Below, one piece after another: positions 5,529 through 63,066 of a stretch of DNA of 64,000 nt. Source of the DNA: a virus; the IMG/VR virus record IMGVR_UViG_3300027770_000026, positions 62,001 through 126,000 of that record, one strand, 5' to 3'. The notes beneath the pieces are model-generated. The model was given only the letters and a program-made list of their open reading frames with translations, did not search any database and had not been told where the DNA came from. Each line of letters starts with the position of its first letter. Position 1 is the stretch's first letter. Position numbers and translations under genes: made by a program.

Positions 5529-5756
5529 TCAATGGATTTTCCCCATAATTTTAGCTGCTGCTACTTCAGCTTCTAGCTCTGCATGTTTGGGCAAAGTTAA
5601 CCAAATATCAAACTCTTCGGGTGGGATTTCTTCCTCTTCATAGCCCAAAAGCATCATAAGATCGGAACTGCGAAGCTCATCCACTCCCTGCTGTTTGAAT
5701 TGGTACATGATGGAAAGGATTTGGTCACGCAGTGGCTGATCGTCATCATCGTTCAT
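5529..5756 (-). CDS. Acidic hypothetical protein
   Basis: 75 residues with strongly acidic segments (MNDDDDQPL; LLGYEEEEIPPEEFDIWL). Start in an ATGA overlap with the upstream gene. Helical and negatively charged, so a DNA-mimic or binding role is conceivable but not shown. Confidence 0.65.
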   Translation of the reverse strand: MNDDDDQPLRDQILSIMYQFKQQGVDELRSSDLMMLLGYEEEEIPPEEFDIWLTLPKHAELEAEVAAAKIMGKIH

Positions 5757-6121
5757 TTGGTTGCTCCAATTTTAAAAGTTTTACCAGTTGGTGCGGCTAT
5801 TCGTTGGAGCTCAATGAATTTTTCTAGATCTAAGGTTGCAAGGTCCTGCCACGTTTCTGCATACCTGCATGTCACCCGAAACAGTGTAGCAGTGTCGCTG
5901 GCTGCGGGCATTAGGTTATCAAAACGGTCCGTGCCGTAGTACCTCAACCTAATAGGAAAGATTTGAGCAATATTCCAGGCCATAGCTTTGTTCTCGGGTG
6001 TGTACTGAACCAGAATACTCTGTTTTGCGTTTACATGCATGTAGCACCAATCCTGCTGCTCAGGATTGAGTATGAGAAAACGTAGTGTAGTGTCGTGTAT
6101 GCTGCCTTTTACAAGGGTCAT
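5753..6121 (-). CDS. Hypothetical protein
   Basis: 122 residues of mixed alpha/beta character (TLVKGSIHDTTLRFLILNPE at the N-terminus). No domain was recognised. Transcribed with the 75-residue acidic protein through an ATGA overlap. Confidence 0.65.
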   Translation of the reverse strand: MTLVKGSIHDTTLRFLILNPEQQDWCYMHVNAKQSILVQYTPENKAMAWNIAQIFPIRLRYYGTDRFDNLMPAASDTATLFRVTCRYAETWQDLATLDLEKFIELQRIAAPTGKTFKIGATK

Positions 6122-6214: not shown

Positions 6215-6451
6215 TTAGATCTTACCGTTAGAGATGAACTCGTTGAGGCGCGAAGCCTTAACAATTACATCTTCTTCAGTAAAGTACTGGGGGAACTCTG
6301 GGGTATCGGGCAATGCCTTTTGATTGTGCATTGCTGATTGAACCTGATTGTTCCAGTCTGTCTCAACAAATCCACGCTTGCTGTGGTATTCGTCGTTGAG
6401 CATGTCCTTTGCGAGCCGTACTAGCTCTAGTCTAATTTCAAATGGTGTCAT
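6215..6451 (-). CDS. Conserved phage hypothetical protein
   Basis: 78 residues beginning MTPFEIRLELVRLAKDML. I recall similar small proteins from T4-like cyanophages, but no function is known to me. AAGGAG sits seven bases before the ATG. It diverges from the kinase-fusion gene across an 88-base promoter region. Confidence 0.75.
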   Translation of the reverse strand: MTPFEIRLELVRLAKDMLNDEYHSKRGFVETDWNNQVQSAMHNQKALPDTPEFPQYFTEEDVIVKASRLNEFISNGKI

Positions 6452-8681: not shown

Positions 8682-8719
8682 GAGGGTTTTTCTGTTGCCA
8701 GGAAAACCCACAAACCCCG
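8682..8719 (-). terminator. tmRNA terminator hairpin; right copy of 38-bp direct repeat
   Basis: On the minus strand GGGTTTT pairs with AAAACCC and CTG with CAG around a GCAA (GNRA) tetraloop, and a T-rich run follows (CTCTTATTTTTT). It stands directly downstream of the tmRNA tag region. It is also the right copy of the repeat at 6171-6208. Confidence 0.8.
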
Positions 8720-8977
8720 GTCTATTCCGCTATTAGGCGGCTAGTGCCATGTCGTAATTGCTATCGTTTGCAGTTACTGTTTTTGCGCTGATTAAGTCAG
8801 TCGCCTCACTGGTAGCCCTTAGTTTATTACTCACCCTGTCAAACCTGGTCGGCCCCAACAACAACACACTTCGTCCTGCAGTACATTCCTAATAGGTGTG
8901 ACACGGTCTGCAAATGTGCTGTTGGTGGAGCCGGGGGGAATCGCACCCCCGTCCAAGATGCCTTTAGTTAAGAGTTT
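8720..8977 (-). ncRNA. ssrA: Circularly permuted (two-piece type) tmRNA
   Basis: Read leftward, the 3' acceptor part comes first. A T-arm (GGGGG-TGCGATT-CCCCC) is followed by CGGCTCC, discriminator A and an encoded CCA ending at 8923. A 66-base spacer (8922-8857) follows. The 5' part then starts GGGGCCG at 8856, which pairs with CGGCTCC, including the G3-U wobble that marks alanine charging. A D-arm analogue with GGTTTGACAGGG, helices at ~8780-8812, an A-rich stretch and the resume codon GCA (8771-8769) come next. The tag reads ANDSNYDMALAA, then TAA TAG, with the stops in the loop of a CCGC/GCGG hairpin. This order is that of permuted tmRNAs processed into two pieces. It would rescue stalled ribosomes with host SmpB. 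Exact mature ends are uncertain. Confidence 0.92.
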
Positions 8978-8983
8978 ACTACC

Positions 8984-8996: not shown

Positions 8997-9746
8997 TTAT
9001 AGTTTTTGATCATATGGTACTTCAATCCATCTACGATTATTCCACGTTGTATTGATAGTATGCACAACACCTTTCCTTATATCATGATAAAACAGTCTTG
9101 CTTGTGTTTGTGATGTGATGCTATCAACTAATGCCCAAAAACTGCTCGACACACAATGTATTTCTGTTGCGTTTCTGATCAGAGTAACCCACTTTAACAA
9201 GTTACCCTGATCTAGATCCAAAGTAACATAGATTATTTTGATATTAGGTAACCCGTTCACAACACGATATTGTTCAATGTCAATTGGAAAGCCATCTAGG
9301 TAATGACTGGATGATTTATGAATCAATACATATGGTTCTCCGGGGGTAACTAACGAACAGTACAGTTCATCCGAATCATCAATATGTTTTGGTAAACGAA
9401 AATTAGTATATCTCAAAGAGAAAGGCAAGTTATAAGAATCATAATATTGCTGAGAGAAATTAATTGGGATATGAATTCCGTTTATAACTGTGTAATTAAG
9501 CATCCTTCTCTTAATTTGAGAAAGTCCGCTATCTGATATGTATTGAGGTTCATAATTTGGGTGTACAGATACTACCTTAATATTAGGCCAATCTTGATAC
9601 AGACAACGAGTAGTTTCATAATAGCAAGGTTGAGTCGGAATATGTAATTCTCGACACCGATCGCCATAGTAATGAGCTATACCATTGTGAATAAAAGTAT
9701 CACCGAGGCTTTGATAACCTATAAAGAACAAACGATCAAATATCAC
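8997..9746 (-). CDS. Glycosyltransferase-like protein (paralogue 1)
   Basis: 249 residues, GTG start at 9746. The N-terminus DRLFFIGYQSLGDTFIHNGI resembles the first Rossmann motif of GT-B enzymes of the ADP-heptose transferase kind (a GD near a nucleotide-binding loop). The C-terminal half has a segment ATEIHCVSSSFWALVDS that recurs in its neighbour. The paralogue at 9749-10507 shares many blocks (DRLFF, SLGD, HYYGD, LRYTNFRLP). It could modify surface polysaccharide or a nucleobase; the enzyme class is an inference. Confidence 0.6.
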   Translation of the reverse strand: MIFDRLFFIGYQSLGDTFIHNGIAHYYGDRCRELHIPTQPCYYETTRCLYQDWPNIKVVSVHPNYEPQYISDSGLSQIKRRMLNYTVINGIHIPINFSQQYYDSYNLPFSLRYTNFRLPKHIDDSDELYCSLVTPGEPYVLIHKSSSHYLDGFPIDIEQYRVVNGLPNIKIIYVTLDLDQGNLLKWVTLIRNATEIHCVSSSFWALVDSITSQTQARLFYHDIRKGVVHTINTTWNNRRWIEVPYDQKL

Positions 9747-9748
9747 TT

Positions 9749-10507
9749 TTATACTTTATCGTGATAATTTACAATATTCCAGCAACGACGATTCCATTCA
9801 CTGTTAACACGAGTAACAGAGAAAGCACGAATGTCATGAAAGAACAATTTTGCATTAGTTTGATTAAACATGCTATCTACTAATGCCCAAAAACTACTAG
9901 ATACACAATGTATTTCGCTAGCGTTCTTAATCAACTTAACCCAGCGAAGTAAGTTCCTACCATCCAAACTTTCGTCTACATGTATTACTTTAAGTTGTGG
10001 TAATCCGTTTATTTGTCTAAACCAATCAATATTGATAGATATACCATCCGGATGGTGTCCTGTTTTATTGTGTAATAAAATATAAGGCTCACCGCCCGAC
10101 AATTGATCATATAACTCGTCGCTACCATCTACATAGTTTGGTAAACGAAAGTTAGTATAACGCATGGAAAAAGGTATACTATAGTAGTCGTAGTATTGCA
10201 TGTCAAATGCAACTGGTATTAGCTGCCCGCTTAGATGCACCGAATAAACACTGTTTCTTAGAATGCGAGAAAGTTTATTCTCTGCAACATATTGATCTTC
10301 TCCCTGATTATGCGGCATCAGGGGAACTACAATGATATGGGGATGATCCTGATACAAAGTACGAATAGTATCGTAGTATTTAGGAAGACAAGGTATATGC
10401 AATTCGTCTGTCATATCACCGTAGTAATGTGCAACCCCATTCATTATAAACGCATCGCCAAGACTCATTGGTCCCGTAAAAAACAATCGATCAAAAATCT
10501 TAGTCAC
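9749..10507 (-). CDS. Glycosyltransferase-like protein (paralogue 2)
   Basis: 252 residues, GTG start overlapping the upstream stop (GTGACTAA). Shares with 8997-9746 the blocks DRLFF, SLGDAFIMNGVAHYYGD, LRYTNFRLP and ASEIHCVSSSFWALVDS, so it is a tandem duplicate that has diverged considerably. Function inferred as for paralogue 1. Confidence 0.6.
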   Translation of the reverse strand: MTKIFDRLFFTGPMSLGDAFIMNGVAHYYGDMTDELHIPCLPKYYDTIRTLYQDHPHIIVVPLMPHNQGEDQYVAENKLSRILRNSVYSVHLSGQLIPVAFDMQYYDYYSIPFSMRYTNFRLPNYVDGSDELYDQLSGGEPYILLHNKTGHHPDGISINIDWFRQINGLPQLKVIHVDESLDGRNLLRWVKLIKNASEIHCVSSSFWALVDSMFNQTNAKLFFHDIRAFSVTRVNSEWNRRCWNIVNYHDKV

Positions 10508-16858: not shown

Positions 16859-17284
16859 TTAGCTGCGCTTGATTTCGATCTTGCGTGGCTTGAGCTCTTC
16901 TGGTACCTTCTTGACTAATTGTACAGTCAACAGGCCGTTTTTGCAAGTGGCAGATTCAACTTCCACATGCTCACCGAGACGCCAATTCAATTCAAAGTCT
17001 CGATTAGCAATGCCCTTGTACACATAGTCACGTGGCTCTTCATCCGGTACTCGTGAGCCAGTAACGTGCAGCACGTTATTGTCCACAGTAACTTCAATAT
17101 CGTCCGGAGAGAAGCCAGCAACTGCAACAGTGATGCTCCAGGTATTGTCTTCGAGTCGTTCGATATTGTATGGTGGATACTTGGCCTGAGGTAAACCGTT
17201 TCGTCCCATAAGGTCATTGAGATATTCAAACCCTACGGTTAAACGGTTCAGATGGTCGTTGAGATTTGTAGTTGTTACATTCAT
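16859..17284 (-). CDS. hsp20: Small heat-shock protein, Hsp20/IbpA family
   Basis: 141 residues. N-terminal TVGFEYLNDL and YPPYNIERL as in IbpA. The alpha-crystallin domain covers about 40-128 and ends with NGLLTVQL. An IEI motif near the C-terminus (KIEIKRS) is the oligomer-contact I-x-I. The family holds unfolding proteins in a refoldable state. It is common in T4-like cyanophages. The gene has a late promoter and a structured 80-base leader. It stands between ClpS and bS21. Confidence 0.93.
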   Translation of the reverse strand: MNVTTTNLNDHLNRLTVGFEYLNDLMGRNGLPQAKYPPYNIERLEDNTWSITVAVAGFSPDDIEVTVDNNVLHVTGSRVPDEEPRDYVYKGIANRDFELNWRLGEHVEVESATCKNGLLTVQLVKKVPEELKPRKIEIKRS

Positions 17285-17395: not shown

Positions 17396-17617
17396 TCAAG
17401 TTTTAATTTTTTGCTCGCGACGAGTGCGGGCGACAGCTTTGGCTTTAGCACGGCGTGCAACAATGCTGGGCTTGAGGTATTCACGCTTCTTGTCCAGATC
17501 GTCCAAACGTCCACTGTTCTCTACTTTCTTTTTGAACTTGCGCAGCATCTTCTCAAAACTATCGCTGCCGTTATCGTCTACACGTAGACCTTTGATAATT
17601 GGTTCTTTATGTCTCAT
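17396..17617 (-). CDS. rpsU: Ribosomal protein bS21
   Basis: 73 residues, highly basic. The pattern GLRVDDNGSDSFEKMLRKFK, KKREYLKPS and a C-terminal Arg/Lys/Ala-rich helix match bS21. bS21 is the last, exchangeable protein of the small subunit near the anti-Shine-Dalgarno site, and phage copies are thought to replace the host protein and bias initiation. Its ATG overlaps the clpX stop as TAATG, so the two are translationally coupled. Confidence 0.93.
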   Translation of the reverse strand: MRHKEPIIKGLRVDDNGSDSFEKMLRKFKKKVENSGRLDDLDKKREYLKPSIVARRAKAKAVARTRREQKIKT

Positions 17618-18861
17618 TATACACCTTTTTTCTTTTGCTTGTGCTTTATCAAAGGCATTTCTTCTGTACCGTTGATATACTCTTTAGTTATCGTTACTGT
17701 GCTTACTGTTTGTAAATTCTTATGGCTAAGACTGTACTGCAACGGTGTTAACTTCTTCTCTAATATACTGCGCAAACTACGTGCGCCTGTTCCCTGCTTG
17801 ATAGCTTTTTGTGCAATACTACTCAGTGCTTCCGGTGCAAACTTTAATTTTACGGGAGAGAACATAGCTTCATACTGTTTGATGATACTGTCTTTTGGTT
17901 CCGTAAGGATCTTGACCATTTGTTCTTCTGTTAGCATTTCAGTGGAAGTGATAACCGGCAAGCGTCCCATTAGTTCTGGGATCATACCATACTTTACCAA
18001 ATCTGTTGCAGCCAATAAGTCCCAATTAATTTTCTTGTTAGATGTTACATTAGCAGAAAATCCAATACCAGTGCTAGTGGACTGTTGCTGCTCTAGATGT
18101 TTCTCTAGTCCAACAAATGCTCCACTACACACAAAGAGGATATTACTAGTGTCCATCTTAACAGTATCACCTAGTCCAAATGGCTTATCTGGATCTGTGG
18201 GTACACTGATCTCGCAGCCTTCGATCATTTTTAGTAGTGCTTGCTGCACACCTTCGCCCGACACATCTCGTTCTACCGTAGCACCACTGTGTGCCCGTGC
18301 GATCTTGTCAATCTCGTCAATAAAGATTATACCTTGTTCAGCTAGTTGTACATTACCATTAGCTGCTTGCAGCAATCTACTTAGGAGTACATCTGCATCG
18401 TCACCTGCATAACCTGCTTGAGTCAGTGCAGTAGCGTCTCCGATTATCATTGGTACACTTAGCAAGTTAGCAATGGCTTTGACCATTAGAGTTTTACCCG
18501 AACCAGTTGGTCCAAGTAACAAGATGTTGCTCTTATCTACTCGTACACTTTCTTTGTCTGCTTTACGGAACAATCGTTTGTAATGATTGTGTACAGCAAC
18601 ACTAAGGACTACCTTAGCTTTATCCTGACCAATTACAATTGTATCAAGATATTCTTTAATCTCAATCGGTGTTATTATTTTAGGTTTAGTTTTAGGTTGG
18701 GGCGTTTTGACTTCGGGTACTTTTTTAACTAATAGGTCTACTATAGACTGTACACATATGTTGCAGATACCCGCTGTTTCACCAACAATCAGACGCTCAA
18801 CTTCTGCCTGAGTTCGCTGACAAAAACTACAGTGCTTTACCGTATTTTTTTTGGATTGCAT
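17617..18861 (-). CDS. clpX: ClpX, AAA+ unfoldase of ClpXP
   Basis: 414 residues, close to E. coli ClpX. Zinc-binding domain with C11, C14, C33, C36; Walker A GPTGSGKT; pore loop GYAGDD (GYVG in E. coli); Walker [29 protein letters not shown]; the ClpP-docking IGF loop (TGIGFSANV); arginine motif GARSLRSI. The basic RKH loop that helps select ssrA tags is replaced: the equivalent stretch reads [13 protein letters not shown]. It should therefore dock on host ClpP but may select substrates differently. Its start overlaps the upstream gene by 35 bases. Confidence 0.95.
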
Positions 18862-33593: not shown

Positions 33594-34757
33594 TTAGGCG
33601 TTCTCGACTTGTACGCTGGTGTTGAGTACAGCAGCAGTTAATTTCCAAGGAACTGTAACTCCGCTTGCAAACTCATATGCTGCACCATTAATAGCCTTGC
33701 GTGTCAATAGCGCACGGTGAGCTGTTAGTTTGGTTACATAATATTCGTTTGTGTCGCTGTCAACTGCAACAATAGTTGCTTCACCAGCAGCCGGACCTGC
33801 AGCTACTAGCTTGACTTGGCTTTGGCCTTGTGCAGTGTCTACTAGATAACGACGGCTTGCTTCCTGCTTGATGATATCACCAGCTACTGCTGAACTTCCG
33901 CCAACGACCCATGCAGTGATCTTGATAGCATTTGCCTTAGTTGAAGTTAGTGTGATAGTCTGTAGTGTTACGCTTTGTGTAACGCTTGAACTTGGAGCAG
34001 TATAATAACCTGCACCAGCAGTTGTGATCACTACTGACTTAGCACGATATGTTGGCGTAATTGTTAGACCAGCACCGTATGTATCACATACAGCAGCTTG
34101 TGCACCTGTTACTAGTGCTTCAAATTCGCCACGGTTAACTGGGGTCAGTGCCGTGACTGTGCCGTATGTTACACCGCGTGTGAATGTTGCACCTGTTACA
34201 GTTGAACCACCAATTGCTAGTGGACTGGTTGCAGCTACTGCATCAGCATAGGTAGCATACAGTGTTGCAGCAGTTGCTGTTGTTGGTGCTCCAACGTAGT
34301 AAATCTGTCCGCCAGCAATAGTTGTACCACCAATGGTCAAGTTACCAGTAACTGTTCCAGTAATGTGAATACTGGTACCAGAAATCATTGCAGTTGTAGT
34401 GGTGGTGAAGCTGATCTGAGTGTTAGCAGAGTTAGCTATGCTTGATAGTGCGCTGGATGTTACAGTTGCAGTGTATGTTGATGTTGTTGTACCACCAACA
34501 AAACTGATTGCACCTGCTGTAATAGGATAAGCACGAGTCTGTGTGCCACCAATCGCAACACTTAACACTTCTGATGTGATAGTACCTAGTGCTAGTACAC
34601 CACCTGACGCTACTGGAACGTCAGGGTTACCAAATGTGATCAACGGACGAGTGGTGTATGAACCTGCAGCATTAACTGCTGCGCTTGCTACACCTTCACC
34701 ACCTACTGGTGGGCTGTTTGTATTACCAAAATATTTCTTATGAATCGGGCGTCCCAT
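33594..34757 (-). CDS. Putative virion protein, Thr/Gly-rich beta repeat
   Basis: 387 residues beginning MGRPIHKKYFGNTNSPPVGG. The bulk is low-charge beta-rich repeats full of Thr, Ala, Gly and Val, like decoration or fibre proteins. It has a TAAATA promoter and its own terminator, implying high late expression. The MGRP..KKYFG start is one I recall from T4-like virion proteins. Confidence 0.7.
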   Translation of the reverse strand: MGRPIHKKYFGNTNSPPVGGEGVASAAVNAAGSYTTRPLITFGNPDVPVASGGVLALGTITSEVLSVAIGGTQTRAYPITAGAISFVGGTTTSTYTATVTSSALSSIANSANTQISFTTTTTAMISGTSIHITGTVTGNLTIGGTTIAGGQIYYVGAPTTATAATLYATYADAVAATSPLAIGGSTVTGATFTRGVTYGTVTALTPVNRGEFEALVTGAQAAVCDTYGAGLTITPTYRAKSVVITTAGAGYYTAPSSSVTQSVTLQTITLTSTKANAIKITAWVVGGSSAVAGDIIKQEASRRYLVDTAQGQSQVKLVAAGPAAGEATIVAVDSDTNEYYVTKLTAHRALLTRKAINGAAYEFASGVTVPWKLTAAVLNTSVQVENA

Positions 34758-34839
34758 TTTGTTTCTCCTTAAGTGAGTTAAAGTCGTTCTAGGACTTACG
34801 CGGTGGGGACCGCATAACTCTGTTATTGAACAGACAATG

Positions 34840-37932: not shown

Positions 37933-39231
37933 TCAGAGGTTCTTAATATATTCTTTATACTTTGCGGGACTTTGCTTTTGTAGCAAACGGTCAAACGCTG
38001 GCCACCCGTTATTGTCACGATTGCGGCTATAATTTGCAATACTGCCTGCAGCAATTGTGCCACTTATAACAGCATTGACCATAATGGGAGCTATCACTTT
38101 TTCAAGTTGTACTAGAAAACGCTCTGAGGCATCATTATAATCTGCAGATTCTGTTAGTTCGGCTGCAAAATCTAATAGTTGCCGCGGCGAACTGTATTTT
38201 ACTATAGTGGGTATGCAGCCAGTCCATATGGAGCTGGTGCCGTGCTCGCTTACTAACGCATTTAGCGAATATACTACAAGGTCCTCAGCATCTTGTTCTT
38301 TAACTGCATGATCCAATAGCCAGGGTTCAAATGCTTTCACTCTATCCCCAATGAATCTCACATACGCTAATGCTGTTCTAGTATCGTTGAGTAGCATGAC
38401 CGCATGCTCTACAAAGGCATTACGATCAATGCCTTCTTCATCCTCGCTAGATGCTACATAGTTGTCTAGCAGTGTTTTTAGCAGTGCTTGATCACGTTCT
38501 ATTATCCCGTATATTGCTGGATTTATTTTATTATCAAAGTCAGTATATTCTAGGTAACCTGCTGCTGCTTGCGGGTCATTTAATTTCACAATATAGGGTT
38601 CAAGTTCAGGCAATCTGCTACTGGTATAATCACTTTTTTCATTGAGATATGCTATAAGCGATTGTGGAGACTTTGCAATTGCAGGTAATGCTTCCTTCCA
38701 CAACCTGTCGGTTAGTAACCGAGATTCGTAGTGGGCAATGCCCGCAGGGTCTTGCATTATGCGAGCTTGTATTTCGGATGTGGGCTTTATCATTGCAGCA
38801 TCGATATAGTACACCAGCTGCCTGACTGTTCCTGAAGCCATTATGGTGTTTAGGGCTTCAGGCCATACCATTGGTTTGTTAGTATTTTGAGCCCGTCTCC
38901 AAATGTATACCTCAATGAGTTCTGGATCGTTTACTATGAGTTTTTCAATTGACGGATCCCTCTTAGTGCCATTACTCATTCCACCATTCATAGTATATGC
39001 AAGTAATGCTTTCTGAAATACGTTTGAATCCTTTATATACAAGGGCATCCAGGCTAGTAGTTCCCCGCGGCGGGTTTTGCGATCCTCGGGGGTTTTTTCG
39101 CGATAATTGATCCGATGTAGCTTGCACTGCTTCCGCCAAACATATGACGGAATATGCTGTTCTCGCGTTTTATAACCCACTAATTTAGTGGGCGCAGTGT
39201 GAAATTTAAATAGGTCTATTGAATCAAACAT
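37933..39231 (-). CDS. YH-x2-P repeat family protein, member 7
   Basis: 432 residues, the longest of the tandem family. N-terminal block DLFKFHTAPTKLVGYK matches the shared (L/I)-(Y/F)-x-(Y/F)-H-x-x-P-x-x-L-x-G-Y motif. The rest is helical repeats with blocks such as LPELEPYIVKL. Repeats of this kind (DUF4116-like) are usually protein-binding solenoids. Last gene of the array on the minus strand. Confidence 0.7.
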   Translation of the reverse strand: MFDSIDLFKFHTAPTKLVGYKTREQHIPSYVWRKQCKLHRINYREKTPEDRKTRRGELLAWMPLYIKDSNVFQKALLAYTMNGGMSNGTKRDPSIEKLIVNDPELIEVYIWRRAQNTNKPMVWPEALNTIMASGTVRQLVYYIDAAMIKPTSEIQARIMQDPAGIAHYESRLLTDRLWKEALPAIAKSPQSLIAYLNEKSDYTSSRLPELEPYIVKLNDPQAAAGYLEYTDFDNKINPAIYGIIERDQALLKTLLDNYVASSEDEEGIDRNAFVEHAVMLLNDTRTALAYVRFIGDRVKAFEPWLLDHAVKEQDAEDLVVYSLNALVSEHGTSSIWTGCIPTIVKYSSPRQLLDFAAELTESADYNDASERFLVQLEKVIAPIMVNAVISGTIAAGSIANYSRNRDNNGWPAFDRLLQKQSPAKYKEYIKNL

Positions 39232-39234
39232 ATG

Positions 39235-39981
39235 TTATCTTCTTGCTATCTTGTTTTCTTTGTCGGCTACCCACTGTCTATGCAGCTGATCAATTTCACT
39301 TTGACTTGTGCCAGTATGACGCAGCGCATTATAGAAATATGGATACCATTCGTCAGAATTGGCTTTAACAATGGGCTCTAACTCCGGATGACGCACGCCT
39401 GTTTCCCAAGTAAAATCAATGACCAGACGTGTACTCTGTTTAATTATATCCATTAATTTACTGGGTATTTGTATATCATTTTCAAAAAGATATCCTGCAT
39501 ACTCAATTAGTATAGTATTGCGAGTATCTCTTTTATATGAGTCAGTTGTGTCCATATTCGTCAGTACGTTTTCCAATTCAGGCCAACGCTCCCCAATGGC
39601 CTCTTTGACATATTTCATTATTATTTCCGACTTGCTGATGAGCTTGAAATTTAATAGTCTGGGTTCTATTCCGGGCAATCTTTTTCCTAGTTTAGAAGCA
39701 TATCCCACAGCAAGATGTGGACTTAGTGCTAGTACTTCTTGCACATCTAGGCCAAGATCACCTGTTTCTATTGAATACCACATGGCGTCTGCTGCATCGT
39801 GCATGAATAGTGGTTTACGTTTAACTATCTGAGATCGTTCCATGGGAATTTTATCACGGAAGAATCTCACAAAGTCAGGATGTATGTCCATTACAGCCTT
39901 TGCTGCAGTTAAAGTCTCAGGATTGCTGTGGTAATTGTACAGCATAAAATCAATTTCTTGCGATGGATCCATCTCTTCCAT
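39235..39981 (-). CDS. YH-x2-P repeat family protein, member 6
   Basis: 248 residues. The motif FMLYNYHSNPETL lies at residues 12-24. Helical repeats with ERWPELENVL and VRHPELEPIV follow. The family block is less well kept after the motif (no GY). Starts five bases or less after the 76-residue gene. Confidence 0.7.
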   Translation of the reverse strand: MEEMDPSQEIDFMLYNYHSNPETLTAAKAVMDIHPDFVRFFRDKIPMERSQIVKRKPLFMHDAADAMWYSIETGDLGLDVQEVLALSPHLAVGYASKLGKRLPGIEPRLLNFKLISKSEIIMKYVKEAIGERWPELENVLTNMDTTDSYKRDTRNTILIEYAGYLFENDIQIPSKLMDIIKQSTRLVIDFTWETGVRHPELEPIVKANSDEWYPYFYNALRHTGTSQSEIDQLHRQWVADKENKIARR

Positions 39982-39982
39982 A

Positions 39983-40213
39983 TTATTTGTCCTTGTCCGC
40001 TACGGGCTTTTCGCCTGTGAGATAGGGCTTGCTAAACCACAGTTTAAACCATGCATCAGTACCGGGCTTGATATTTTTCTCGCGTTCTATTTTACGCTTC
40101 TCGGTGCCAGTCATGCTGACATTGCTGCCAGGGTATTTACTCCAGTCTACTGGCTTGGAGCTGTTAGCATAGTGATCCAACCCCGCTAGTTTACGTAGTT
40201 CATCGAGGTTCAT
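39983..40213 (-). CDS. Small conserved phage protein
   Basis: 76 residues (MNLDELRKLAGLDHYAN), with a C-terminal block GTDAWFKLWFSKPYLTGE. I recall similar small proteins in T4-like cyanophages. It splits the tandem array and overlaps the 39-residue mini-member by 14 bases. Confidence 0.65.
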   Translation of the reverse strand: MNLDELRKLAGLDHYANSSKPVDWSKYPGSNVSMTGTEKRKIEREKNIKPGTDAWFKLWFSKPYLTGEKPVADKDK

Positions 40214-40319
40214 ATTTTTTGATATCCCAATTTAAATTCACGGCCATTAAATCCGTAACGAGCAATGGCACTAATTTTTTATCCACATGATACTTGTATA
40301 AATTTAATACTTGTTTCAT
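40200..40319 (-). CDS. 39-residue mini-member of the YH family
   Basis: ATG 40319 to TGA 40200, in an ATGA overlap with member 5. Starts MKQVLNLYKYHVDKKLVPLL, which carries the LNLYxYH block but loses the Pro and GY. Either a truncated remnant or a bare motif peptide. Confidence 0.5.
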   Translation of the reverse strand: MKQVLNLYKYHVDKKLVPLLVTDLMAVNLNWDIKKYEPR

Positions 40320-41095
40320 CGGAAAACCCTTCCTTTAAATCCGCGCTCTTTTATCAATTGATATCTTGCTGAAAGATTGTGTAATTGCGCTAGATACAAA
40401 TTCCACGGTGAGTCAAAGTGTGGATAATCTTTAAGTTTTACTGAAGGTGATTCTTCATCCCAGTCGATGTCAACCGGTAGATCCATGTAATCTTCCTCGG
40501 CAGTTTCCAACCACTCTCGCCTATTAGGATTCCAATTGTAGATAGCATCCTCTAGCTCGGGTATACGTTCCCATCGTTTGCCGCCTGTGACGGCCTGATG
40601 GAAAGCTGTTACAGGATCGTCACTTATGCGGGCTAAGACTTTTTTCACAAAGTCAGGATACTTTTTTATCAGATCTTTAAGCTCAAAATGCCCAAGATAT
40701 TCGTTTAGTATTTCTGGTGCGGCTTTTATTATCTGATCAAAATACTCAGGTGCAACTATACCTAGCACATCACTGGTATAATCCGCTATCGATTCGGGAT
40801 CAGTTGCTATAATCTGCTCTACTGCGCCACGTCGTGGCCACAACTGGTCTGACACACCCTGCTTTGTGGTGCAATTCTGATAGATTTTTGCCGAACGATA
40901 TGCTATGTCTGGATCTTTTCCCAGTACGGACTGATATTTGTGTATTGCAGCAACTGCCATTTTTGCCTCGGTTGGCCCTCTCCAATAGTCAGTGTTGGCT
41001 ACTTGTTTAAACGCAATAGTTGGCACAGTTAATTGCTTATCATAGCCAATTAACTCGTTGGGAGAGCTGTGATATGTATATAAATTAAGTCTCAT
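40316..41095 (-). CDS. YH-x2-P repeat family protein, member 5
   Basis: 259 residues from ATG 41095 (MRLNLYTYHSSPNELIGYDK), the clearest form of the family motif, followed by VPTIAFKQV. Then helical repeats (KRWERIPELEDAIYN). The start overlaps member 4 by 11 bases; a longer in-frame start exists but would run 100 bases into member 4. Confidence 0.7.
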   Translation of the reverse strand: MRLNLYTYHSSPNELIGYDKQLTVPTIAFKQVANTDYWRGPTEAKMAVAAIHKYQSVLGKDPDIAYRSAKIYQNCTTKQGVSDQLWPRRGAVEQIIATDPESIADYTSDVLGIVAPEYFDQIIKAAPEILNEYLGHFELKDLIKKYPDFVKKVLARISDDPVTAFHQAVTGGKRWERIPELEDAIYNWNPNRREWLETAEEDYMDLPVDIDWDEESPSVKLKDYPHFDSPWNLYLAQLHNLSARYQLIKERGFKGRVFR

Positions 41096-41804
41096 AACCG
41101 GCTGCGCTTGCGTCTGATACTGCTTGTCTTCCGTCTTGGAAGGCCAAAGTACTAAGGTAATATTCCCATGCTGTTTTGTAAGATGTTGTGAGGCCATGGT
41201 GTCGTGTAAAGCTAAGGTGATTTAACTGAGGACTATTCTTAATGAGATCCTGCCAGTCATCCTCGGACATGCGCAATAATACGGGCTCTATTACAGTATT
41301 ACGCCGCGTGGACCGAGCAGAATATGCAATTGAAGCTGCAATATCTTTACTGAGCATTTTCAGCACCTTATATTTAAAATCAGGATCCACGTAATAGTTG
41401 TCTTTTACCAGATAGCCTAGATATTTTGCCACAAATACTGGATCCAGTTGACCTAGTATGTCTAGATATCTTGGATCCCGTTGTAATTTACTGCCAATAT
41501 GATATTTTAAATGCTCGTCACGATGCTGGGGCGAACGCAACAGTGCCATTTCAACTTCGCCACCAACAGGCCATAAATTATCAATTTCGCTATTTTTGTA
41601 TATTTCCGCTGCACGTATTGCAACGTCTAGGTCTTTACCCAGTACATCCTGATACTGTTTCATTAGTCTGACTTTTGCGTCAGTGCCAGGTATGTTTCTA
41701 ATTTTATCAAATAGAATTGTAGGGATCATCTCATGGGATTCATACCCTATTAATTCCATTGGATCAGTGTGAAATGCAAAAATGTTTCGTTTAATATTTG
41801 TCAT
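41085..41804 (-). CDS. YH-x2-P repeat family protein, member 4
   Basis: 239 residues from ATG 41804, one base after the member 3 stop. Motif IFAFHTDPMELIGYESHEMI, then helical repeats (IEPVLLRM). Confidence 0.7.
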   Translation of the reverse strand: MTNIKRNIFAFHTDPMELIGYESHEMIPTILFDKIRNIPGTDAKVRLMKQYQDVLGKDLDVAIRAAEIYKNSEIDNLWPVGGEVEMALLRSPQHRDEHLKYHIGSKLQRDPRYLDILGQLDPVFVAKYLGYLVKDNYYVDPDFKYKVLKMLSKDIAASIAYSARSTRRNTVIEPVLLRMSEDDWQDLIKNSPQLNHLSFTRHHGLTTSYKTAWEYYLSTLAFQDGRQAVSDASAAGYET

Positions 41805-41805
41805 T

Positions 41806-42651
41806 TTATTTTGTAAATCTCGATGCACGGCGTCGTGCTGCTTCTGCTTCACGTGGGGTTAGCATGCTCAGATAAAGGTCCCACGCAGTTTCATCTGACG
41901 GGAATCCTGTTTCACCGCGCCAATTTTTATTTTTATTAAAATATATTATGCGTTCTGCTTTTAGGAAAGGTGTACGCACATCTGCAATTTGTACATACAT
42001 TAAGCTTGCTAGCACATCTTGTGCTATAATATCTTCTAGTTTGCCTCTGAATTCAGGTGGAGTTCCAGCCCAATCTTCGTGTCCATGATCTTCAAGATAA
42101 TCCACTGCATCTCGCGGAGATAACTGTAATAGTGTGGGCTCTAGTTCGGGAATATGGCGCGTGACCACGAACCTTGCAAAGCGCGAAGCAAATACAGGAT
42201 CCTGTTTAATTAATTCAAATTCACGACTGTTCTTGGGCCATATGAGGTCTTTACCGTTGCCTTCATATCTAACGGATAAAGGCATTTGGTTTACTTGATC
42301 AAGAATATTGCGTAATGTTTCTTTTGGTCCAGGATATACTGCGGTACTGCGTAATAATTGCTGTATAAGGTTGAGTAATTCCTTGCTGGCACTTTTACAT
42401 AATCGTGTAATATGATATACTTCCTCAACCGATTCGGCATAACGATGTCGATTATTAATTAATTTAGTTAGAACTCTAAAAGTATTTTCCACAAGAAGTA
42501 TTAGGTCGTTGTCATGTGGCCCTCTTATTAATTTATTTTGTAGTGCGTTTGTCTGCATACTAAGTTGATTTTTAATATAGGGCAGCAGATTCATGCGCTC
42601 TTTATAGCCACTTAATTTAGAGGGTGTATCGTGATAGTCGTATAGTCGCAT
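41806..42651 (-). CDS. YH-x2-P repeat family protein, member 3
   Basis: 281 residues. Motif MRLYDYHDTPSKLSGYKERM at the very N-terminus. The rest is helical with an IPELEPTLLQL repeat block. Start overlaps the member 2 stop as TAATG. Confidence 0.7.
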   Translation of the reverse strand: MRLYDYHDTPSKLSGYKERMNLLPYIKNQLSMQTNALQNKLIRGPHDNDLILLVENTFRVLTKLINNRHRYAESVEEVYHITRLCKSASKELLNLIQQLLRSTAVYPGPKETLRNILDQVNQMPLSVRYEGNGKDLIWPKNSREFELIKQDPVFASRFARFVVTRHIPELEPTLLQLSPRDAVDYLEDHGHEDWAGTPPEFRGKLEDIIAQDVLASLMYVQIADVRTPFLKAERIIYFNKNKNWRGETGFPSDETAWDLYLSMLTPREAEAARRRASRFTK

Positions 42652-43406
42652 TAGTTTTGATGCTCGCGCTTGTTATCAATTTGTCGCATTCTCAGCGTCA
42701 AATCATCCGCGTCACTGGGATTCTTCATGCCTTTGGCTATTTCTCCCACTGCCCATCTGATCAATGCCCCACTGTTTGGATCTGCAGCATATTCTTGCAT
42801 TAGTAATTCCTCGCCCTCGGCCCAACGTTTTTTAATCATAGCTAGGAATACTGCTGTTGCCGTTACGTCTGACAACATGCGTTCACGCGCACGTTCCCAA
42901 AAACTTGCAGGCGTTTGGTTGTATTTCTTTCCTTCAAATTGTGCAGCATACAATGCAATATCCATTGCAGGAGCTGTGAGAATCCGCTCGTTGTATTGTG
43001 AATCCAATGGCAAATCAACTATGCGTTCCGCGTATTTCATACGATCTGATATGGTTCCGTCTTGATCAATTCTGTTGCGCATGTCAACATTAACGCCAAA
43101 CTTTTCCATGTATCTTATCAGATTTGTTAAATCCCGTGCATTGGCTGCTGCAAATTTTTCTTCGTTTCCGTATAACGGGGCACCTTGATACATGAAGGCA
43201 AATTCTGCAGCAAGATCAGGATCTTGCGTTATTGTTTTTCTATAATGACGCAGTGCCTGTTCATGATCGCCGGTAAGTTTGCGACTTGAACTTGCCGACG
43301 GGACCAAGGAGCGCAATCGCTGATATGCTATCGCAGGTATTTCACTTTGATAGTCATCGCCTACTAAGTGCGGGCCAGTATAATAATTGTATAGATTTAA
43401 AGGCAT
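42651..43406 (-). CDS. YH-x2-P repeat family protein, member 2
   Basis: 251 residues. Motif variant LNLYNYYTGPHLVGDDYQSE with Tyr for His, then IPAIAYQRL. Helical body with KRWAEGEELL. TAAATA ends four bases before the ATG. Confidence 0.7.
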   Translation of the reverse strand: MPLNLYNYYTGPHLVGDDYQSEIPAIAYQRLRSLVPSASSSRKLTGDHEQALRHYRKTITQDPDLAAEFAFMYQGAPLYGNEEKFAAANARDLTNLIRYMEKFGVNVDMRNRIDQDGTISDRMKYAERIVDLPLDSQYNERILTAPAMDIALYAAQFEGKKYNQTPASFWERARERMLSDVTATAVFLAMIKKRWAEGEELLMQEYAADPNSGALIRWAVGEIAKGMKNPSDADDLTLRMRQIDNKREHQN

Positions 43407-43410
43407 GCAG

Positions 43411-43416
43411 TATTTA
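43411..43416 (-). promoter_or_regulatory. Late promoter element TAAATA
   Basis: GCTAAATACTGC on the minus strand, four bases before ATG 43406 (leaderless class). Confidence 0.55.
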
Positions 43417-43436
43417 GCTGCAGGTTGGGATATGGG

Positions 43437-44168
43437 TTAGTCTCCCGGTACGTAACCCCACTTCTTAGCAGCTTCCGTACGTTCAGGAAAATCTGCTAGG
43501 TATGTTCTAACATAGTTGGCTTTTACTAATGTGCGCTCGCCTTCGGGCCAAGGTGCTTTGACCACACGCTGAATATAGGTCAGTGTAGGGTATCCCATTC
43601 TGAGGATAGTGGGTTCTGCTGCAGGCCAACGTTTACCCATTATCTGAGCGTAGAAAACCAAAAACTTGTTTTTATATTTTAGTTCGTCGTGTGTTCTTTC
43701 GGGTAAATCTAGTAGAATTTTTTCCAAGTCTGGCCAGGATTTTAAACCCACTTGCTGCATATAGAACATGGTATGATGCAGGGTGTCTGAATCGATATTA
43801 CTTTTTATTATTTTCTGTATTGCTAATTTTTCAAATTCTGGCCAATGACCTTTAAAAAATTGATGTACGTATGGTGCTAACTGTTGAATTTCAACATCTA
43901 AATCCTTATGCAATATTGCATGTTCAATTGCAGGCGATCGTTTATTGGCAATTGCAGTAGCATAAAACAATGCTTGACCAACATCGCCGGCAGCAGCCAG
44001 AGCTTTTTGCAGATATTCATCTTGCTGCTCGTATGCTTCTTCAGGAAAATCATCAGGATCTAATTCTCCCCCGTAGTATGACGCAAGAGTACGAAGCTGC
44101 GCACGGTCTGAACCAATTAGCTGCTTGGGATCATTATGATATCCCCATAAGTTCATACTTAAACTCAT
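43437..44168 (-). CDS. YH-x2-P repeat family protein, member 1
   Basis: 243 residues. Motif MNLWGYHNDPKQLIGSDRAQ. The repeats are clearest here: HWPEFEKLAI, SWPDLEKILL, RWPAAEPTIL and PWPEGERTLV, spaced about 30-40 residues. The gene overlaps the HEGRNRM-protein stop as ATGA and opens the array. Confidence 0.7.
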   Translation of the reverse strand: MSLSMNLWGYHNDPKQLIGSDRAQLRTLASYYGGELDPDDFPEEAYEQQDEYLQKALAAAGDVGQALFYATAIANKRSPAIEHAILHKDLDVEIQQLAPYVHQFFKGHWPEFEKLAIQKIIKSNIDSDTLHHTMFYMQQVGLKSWPDLEKILLDLPERTHDELKYKNKFLVFYAQIMGKRWPAAEPTILRMGYPTLTYIQRVVKAPWPEGERTLVKANYVRTYLADFPERTEAAKKWGYVPGD

Positions 44169-61977: not shown

Positions 61978-63066
61978 TTAGCGCATGCAGGTCATGCGCG
62001 TCAGCTCCTGCCAACGGTTGGGGTTAATCTTGTAAAGGTCAGCCACCTTAAGCGCGGCGCGCAAGCTGATCTCGCGCATCTTGTTCGCATTCTCAGTGAT
62101 GAAATTCACAATCTCCGTCGACTGCTCTTCAGTGAAGCCGTACTTCTCAGCGTCGAACAGCGTACCCGTAGCAGCAATCTGACGCAACCGCAGCAGCTTC
62201 TCGCGCGTGGTGTGGATGGTCAGGTCCAAGTAGTGGCAGCGCGACTGGAGTGCGTCAATGTGATCCTTCAGCTTCTTGCTCTTGATGTTATCGAACTTCA
62301 AATTAGTAATGAAGATCACCGAACCCTTAAAGTCGAAAGCGTTGGGGATACCCTCACGACGCAGCAATGCGCTATCGCTGTTCCAGTGAATGCGCCGCCG
62401 GCTGCTGCTGTCGAGCGCAGCCTTGAGGATGTTGAGGCTGAGGTCTTCAAGCAAGATGCTGTCGCAGTCGTCAAACACCAACACGCAGTTGGAGTCGCTG
62501 AAGTCAAACAGCTTCTTGTAGAGGCCAATGGGCGTCATCGCACCCTTGACCACTTCGTGCTTGACGACCTTGATCAGCTTGTCAAACATGCTCGCTGTCT
62601 CTAGCGTCTGTTCAACGCCGTAGCTCTTGCCCACGCCTGGGGCACCGCTCACAATCATTGCGCGGATGTTGCCTTCCTTAGCAGCCATCGTCATCTCGTT
62701 GAGCACCTCAAAGCGGGCACCCACACGTTGCATGATCTGCTCGTCGGTCTCGTCAGTGTCAACGGGCGTCTCGTACATGACGTCGTCATCCTCGCTCTTG
62801 TTAACAACAGCAGGCGTGAACGCAATCACGTTGTTGGGAATTTCGCTAGCAGCAACGGGCTGGATAGAGCGAATGCTCTCTACCGTAATACGGATGTTCT
62901 TACCGGCGTAGTCGCCCATGTCGTTGCCAGCAAGTACAGTAACGAAGCCGCCCTTGGCGCCTTCCTTGTAATCCTGCACAAGGCGGAACGTCTGATTGCG
63001 GATCTGCATACCGCGATACTTACCGCTAGTAATACGAACGAAATTTGCCATTTGCTTGTTCTCCAT
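61978..63066 (-). CDS. AAA+ ATPase with N-terminal beta domain
   Basis: 362 residues from ATG 63066 (AGGGA before it); ATG 63051 is the alternative. N-terminal RITSGKYRGMQIRN and LAGNDMGDYAGKNIRI form a KOW/OB-like domain. The AAA core has Walker A GAPGVGKSYGVE, Walker B CVLVFDDCDSIL and sensor VIFITNL. A helical lid follows. Codons are GC-rich compared with neighbours. It may act as a chaperone or in replication; the exact role is unknown. It has a sigma70 promoter. Confidence 0.85.
   Translation of the reverse strand: MENKQMANFVRITSGKYRGMQIRNQTFRLVQDYKEGAKGGFVTVLAGNDMGDYAGKNIRITVESIRSIQPVAASEIPNNVIAFTPAVVNKSEDDDVMYETPVDTDETDEQIMQRVGARFEVLNEMTMAAKEGNIRAMIVSGAPGVGKSYGVEQTLETASMFDKLIKVVKHEVVKGAMTPIGLYKKLFDFSDSNCVLVFDDCDSILLEDLSLNILKAALDSSSRRRIHWNSDSALLRREGIPNAFDFKGSVIFITNLKFDNIKSKKLKDHIDALQSRCHYLDLTIHTTREKLLRLRQIAATGTLFDAEKYGFTEEQSTEIVNFITENANKMREISLRAALKVADLYKINPNRWQELTRMTCMR

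Follow-up and report, generated by a model that had tools for sequence, protein, structure and literature searches.

The stretch of viral DNA analysed here (the window: 64,000 nucleotides, positions 62,001 to 126,000 of IMG/VR record IMGVR_UViG_3300027770_000026) carries a phage-encoded, circularly permuted (two-piece) tmRNA gene at 8983-8733 on the minus strand, with the paired architecture and open tag frame of this RNA class and with conserved counterparts in related phages. In a covariance-model check set in advance, the full Rfam tmRNA_permuted model (RF04321) matched this interval at 142.1 bits, well over the gathering score of 47 (E 6e-28 over all Rfam), and beta_tmRNA (RF01850), the best model of its clan, matched 9038-8659 (-) at 124.5 bits. 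Independently of Rfam, ARAGORN called a tmRNA* at 9015-8642 (-) with the tag ANDSNYDMALAA followed by a double stop; the limits set by ARAGORN and beta_tmRNA lie somewhat beyond the interval first noted (8720-8977). A chance match is ruled out by the E value together with the covariation across homologues described below. Both Rfam models and ARAGORN concur with the initial annotation, which had proposed a phage-encoded permuted tmRNA bearing its own ALAA-ending tag.

The CCA-bearing 3′ half of the acceptor precedes the 5′ half, and the two halves, 66 nt apart, pair over 7/7 bp including G3-U. The predicted acceptor piece (8923-8983, minus strand), delineated by the Rfam match, co-folding and covariation, comprises the 5′ strand of the outer helix (8983-8979), the 5′ strand of the P2 helix (8960-8954), the T-arm (8950-8934), the acceptor 3′ half CGGCTCC (8933-8927) and, at its 3′ end, an encoded ACCA (8926-8923). 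Next comes a 66-nt intervening sequence (8857-8922, minus strand) which, judging from its fold, forms a long hairpin prolonging the acceptor stem and is predicted to be excised from the precursor; its counterparts in phage homologues span 44-88 nt. The coding piece up to the stop (8733-8856, minus strand), delineated by the same three lines of evidence, starts with the acceptor 5′ half GGGGCCG (8856-8850) and contains the D-loop analogue GGUUUGAC, the 3′ strands of P2 (8838-8832) and of the outer helix (8815-8811) and an A-rich stretch leading into the tag reading frame. This frame, identified by ARAGORN and in the sequence, runs from the resume codon GCA at 8771 through the tag (8771-8736) and closes with the double stop TAA TAG (8735-8730). 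All parts described initially (T-arm, CGGCTCC, CCA, 66-nt gap, GGGGCCG, D-arm analogue, GCA, tag and double stop) are present, on the minus strand. The D-loop motif, GGUUU-GAC, lacks one base of the usual GGUUUCGAC. When the two pieces were co-folded with no constraint imposed, the acceptor stem, the T-arm, P2 and the outer helix were recovered. Downstream, a 3′ hairpin, GGGTTTTCCTG-GCAA-CAGAAAAACCC (8684-8709, minus strand; -18.4 kcal/mol, z -1.9), precedes a T-rich tract (about 8683-8671); its motif CTTGG/CCTGG..AACAGAA is common to phage homologues (L070, L101, L105, L046 and others) and it aligns with the 3′ stem of the beta_tmRNA model. The hairpin and the tract constitute a structural element and a probable terminator.

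The paired architecture is under selection. A pattern scan of IMG/VR, in which acceptor positions 5 and 6 were left free, returned at least 120 rows and gave 92 distinct phage sequences among the matches listed; the window gene, with its short D-loop and an intervening sequence of 66 nt, does not fit the pattern and is absent from this set. All 92 of these listed sequences have Watson-Crick pairs at both positions, compared with the 53 (position 5) and 75 (position 6) that independent columns would give, and four pair types occur at position 5 and three at position 6. In an alignment of 14 sequences, we scored a 19-pair core formed by the acceptor, T-arm and P2 helices and excluded the outer helix from the pair count, as MAFFT had shifted its columns by one in some sequences. 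The core is 97.4% paired, with both-side changes in 13/19 pairs; the T-arm has 100% of its cells paired and double changes in 5/5 pairs, and P2 92.9% of its cells paired and double changes in 6/7 pairs. The covariation score of the core is 0.51, versus 0.17 for shuffled and 0.06-0.10 for slid alignments; shuffle tests are inflated by relatedness, yet the score collapses in the slid controls, which retain it. Pairing of the two acceptor halves, on which the first identification hinged, is conserved in homologous phages.

tmRNA releases ribosomes that have stalled and marks their incomplete products for degradation. We put at roughly 85% the probability that the window encodes a bona fide permuted tmRNA (ssrA) gene of a large aquatic phage lineage, which rescues ribosomes together with host SmpB and ClpXP. 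We infer that the gene is expressed, processed into two pieces, charged and used for tagging during infection. Host tRNA-processing enzymes would cut the transcript into the acceptor and coding pieces which, as the fold, the covariation and known permuted tmRNAs suggest, would stay joined via the acceptor, P2 and outer helices. By analogy with established trans-translation, G3-U would let host AlaRS attach alanine to the phage tmRNA, which host SmpB and EF-Tu would then bring to ribosomes that have stalled on broken mRNAs; translation would resume at GCA and append ANDSNYDMALAA, and the ALAA end would direct the tagged product to host ClpXP. This scheme assumes that the phage tmRNA is compatible with host SmpB, AlaRS and ClpXP; the likely benefit would be that ribosomes remain available even as mRNAs are truncated by the infection.

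Neither SmpB (PF01668, E <= 10) nor ClpP (PF00574) was matched in the 265,892-base record, which may be incomplete; the phage must therefore use the host proteins unless its own are encoded outside the record. The window does encode a 414-aa ClpX (17617-18861, minus strand; TIGR00382 447.6 bits, cut-off 370.75, full length) about 9 kb from the tmRNA and near a small heat-shock protein of the Hsp20 family (16859-17284, minus strand; phrog_432, E 9.7e-38). ClpX is the unfoldase that reads ssrA-type tags, and its IGF loop docks on ClpP. Aligned with E. coli ClpX, the phage protein keeps the zinc finger, Walker A, Walker B and the IGF loop. Among the six residues that contact the tag (Y153, V154, T199, V202, R228 and H230, E. 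coli numbering; PMC7652416), it keeps only Tyr153 and Val202, the other four being changed (V154A, T199E, R228K, H230F). In the ClpX of the related record G001 (L122), the pore-2 and RKH loops are changed too; RKH is kept in most other phage ClpX proteins compared. Since tag-contact residues are altered, the phage ClpX is predicted to read the ALAA tag poorly, and tagged proteins would therefore be expected to go to host ClpXP. We had considered that the phage might carry its own tag plus its own reader, a scenario marked down once these residues proved changed.

A different role for this protein appears unlikely, but deserves to be spelled out: the phage would write its own tag and supply a ClpX blind to the standard tag that docks on host ClpP, the two genes forming one re-routed path that alters the choice of proteins for destruction, whether tagged or untagged, so that ClpXP degradation would be re-routed or blocked while ribosomes are still rescued. 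In keeping with such a path, the tmRNA and ClpX genes occur together both in the window phage and in G001, and the zinc finger, Walker and IGF motifs are intact but 4/6 tag-contact residues are not. Permuted tmRNAs were also found in 21/49 ClpX-bearing records of at least 36 kb versus 3/23 arbitrary ones (Fisher p 0.016), in sets whose records are partly related and include many fragments. Genome size and relatedness confound this association, however: for records of at least 100 kb the figures are 12/20 versus 2/7 (p 0.21). Of the records of about 50 kb and upwards that had been selected for a tmRNA, only 1/22 has ClpX; we regard the association as suggestive only. T199E and H230F, moreover, argue that the phage ClpX does not itself read the ALAA tag. 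A ClpX with altered tag-binding residues raises the question of whether the phage gains ribosome rescue only, or also a changed choice of host ClpP substrates.

It seems still less probable that the phage tmRNA is a decoy, competing with the host tmRNA for its partners and hindering rescue. When expressed in E. coli, a form from mycobacteriophage DS6A that has no tag frame inhibits the endogenous tmRNA (PMC11915505), and the one-base deletion in the D-loop of the window gene also speaks for this reading. A pure decoy would have no need of a tag, however, and the window gene retains its full tag and double stop, as the relatives retain open ALAA-like tags.

The initial annotation had regarded such a gene with this tag as unusual in a T4-like phage, a view that the wider survey overturns: permuted tmRNA genes are common in aquatic phages and have been described before. 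By 2022 the tally of phage genomes with such a gene stood at 53, including 50 marine or aquatic ones (PMC9004378), and the tmRNA and SmpB of huge phages were already published (PMC7162821). IMG/VR contains well over 100 of these genes; our scan rows include at least some 100 ARAGORN two-piece calls with many different tags, and in the phage relatives among the matches listed the tags remain open and end in ALAA or a similar sequence. Among 50 IMG/VR contigs drawn by an arbitrary 14-mer, 23 of them at least 36 kb long, three carry a permuted tmRNA, all of them within these 23. As for the likeness to T4, it was looked at only through PHROG matches to a DnaB-like helicase, a primase, a helicase and a DNA polymerase.

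The window gene shares its gene order, acceptor, T-arm, P2, encoded CCA, GCA resume codon and ALAA tag end with RF04321 and RF01850, and departs from both in the D-loop motif that is one base short; its tag is absent from the other loci compared. A complete permuted tmRNA is likewise present in other aquatic phages, namely OM43 phage Melnitz and pelagimyophages (PMC9004378). The Melnitz tmRNA is of alphaproteobacterial type, whereas the window gene best fits beta_tmRNA within the clan, and Melnitz has a glutamine riboswitch (PMC9004378), of which the Rfam scan found none in the window. As in huge phages (PMC7162821), phage ribosome-rescue parts stand alongside tRNAs, 19 of which lie within one 20-kb stretch of the record; in contrast to the huge phages with SmpB (PMC7162821), none was found in this record. 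Sinorhizobium jumbo phage AP-J-162, a different phage, also carries both a tmRNA and clpX, which its authors do not analyse jointly (PMC11242549).

Sequence comparison indicates that the gene was inherited among phages rather than captured recently. About 30 proteins of record G001 (33-71% identity) are collinear with the window, and this record has a diverged permuted tmRNA in the corresponding position, with the tag ANDSAYALAA on our reading. The closest full-length tmRNAs among the matches listed come from viral contigs L070 (73%), L101 and L105 (both 68%), which share the tag ANDDYYEMALAA; in L101 and L105, the gene beside the tmRNA is homologous (54% identity) to the window ORF 6215-6451, separated by about 2.3 kb from the tmRNA of the window. 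In 399 bacterial genomes, sampled from one phylum so that a closer host gene may still exist, the match is limited to about 30-42 nt of the T-arm and acceptor. That the gene is instead a functionless host ssrA gene or fragment, decayed or recently captured, for example when an element integrated at ssrA was excised imprecisely, is largely refuted already and highly improbable: host ssrA genes do serve as integration sites and leave fragments in prophages (PMC9004378), but this gene is complete, shows compensatory changes across phages, has a diverged orthologue in the corresponding position of G001 and finds its full-length matches in viral contigs rather than in the bacterial genomes sampled. 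A host call from similarity to bacterial tmRNAs was dropped, the match being confined to the T-arm and acceptor. RNR genes, tried as a lead to close relatives, pointed to G074 and G075, where nothing but the RNR genes is shared over the stretches compared and neither tmRNA nor ClpX was seen.

Upstream of the window tmRNA, an element TATAAGTA (9002-8995, minus strand), with one mismatch to the T4-type late TATAAATA, and a TATAAT (8989-8984, minus strand) are possible promoter elements; no convincing -35 was seen in the sequence upstream of TATAAT, and by consensus the putative promoter appears weak. We also scanned the 75 nt upstream of 90 distinct phage permuted tmRNAs among the matches listed. 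Sigma-70-like promoters precede 42/90 of these copies (shuffles 8.8, sd 2.5) and the exact late TATAAATA precedes 18/90 (shuffles 1.5, sd 1.4), usually at a distance of 14-18 nt from the assumed tmRNA start; the two counts are not independent, as the motifs may overlap at the -10 region. With the window gene, a class that is widespread in environmental phages, and of which many copies have promoter-like sites, gains a well-supported two-piece tmRNA inherited within phages. A 249-aa gene that matched no family (8997-9746, minus strand) ends directly before the tmRNA; with the neighbouring 252-aa ORF it forms a pair of similar, adjacent reading frames (FDRLFFxG..SLGD; 8997-10507, minus strand), neither of which has an NCBIfam match.

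Several further observations concern the records examined alongside the window. Record G016 (516,805 bases) has a complete tagging and degradation set of permuted tmRNA, SmpB (172 bits), ClpP and ClpX (L212, L366, L385 and L144), with the tag ANDNVDMKDMALAA on our reading; ORFs near its smpB look phage-like (rIIA/rIIB-like, by eye only). SmpB, ClpX and ClpP are present in G012 (359,044 bases; L365), with no tmRNA above the cut-off. ClpP-family genes occur in 17/32 viral records, nearly all of which had been chosen for ClpX, and several have two (L379-L386 and others). A literature search on the freshwater-2 RNA returned nothing; the window has a match to this Rfam family (34755-34834, minus strand; 64.7 bits) directly before a 387-aa ORF (33594-34757), with the model end on the AUG, and this could be a phage 5′ leader element. 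In L105, a related phage contig that also bears a permuted tmRNA, an Rfam COG2908 RNA lies at 5726-5769. Finally, adjacent ORFs of 240-430 aa at 37933-44168 (minus strand) have similar N-termini (LxxYHxxPxxLIGY and the like) and look like a tandem gene family.
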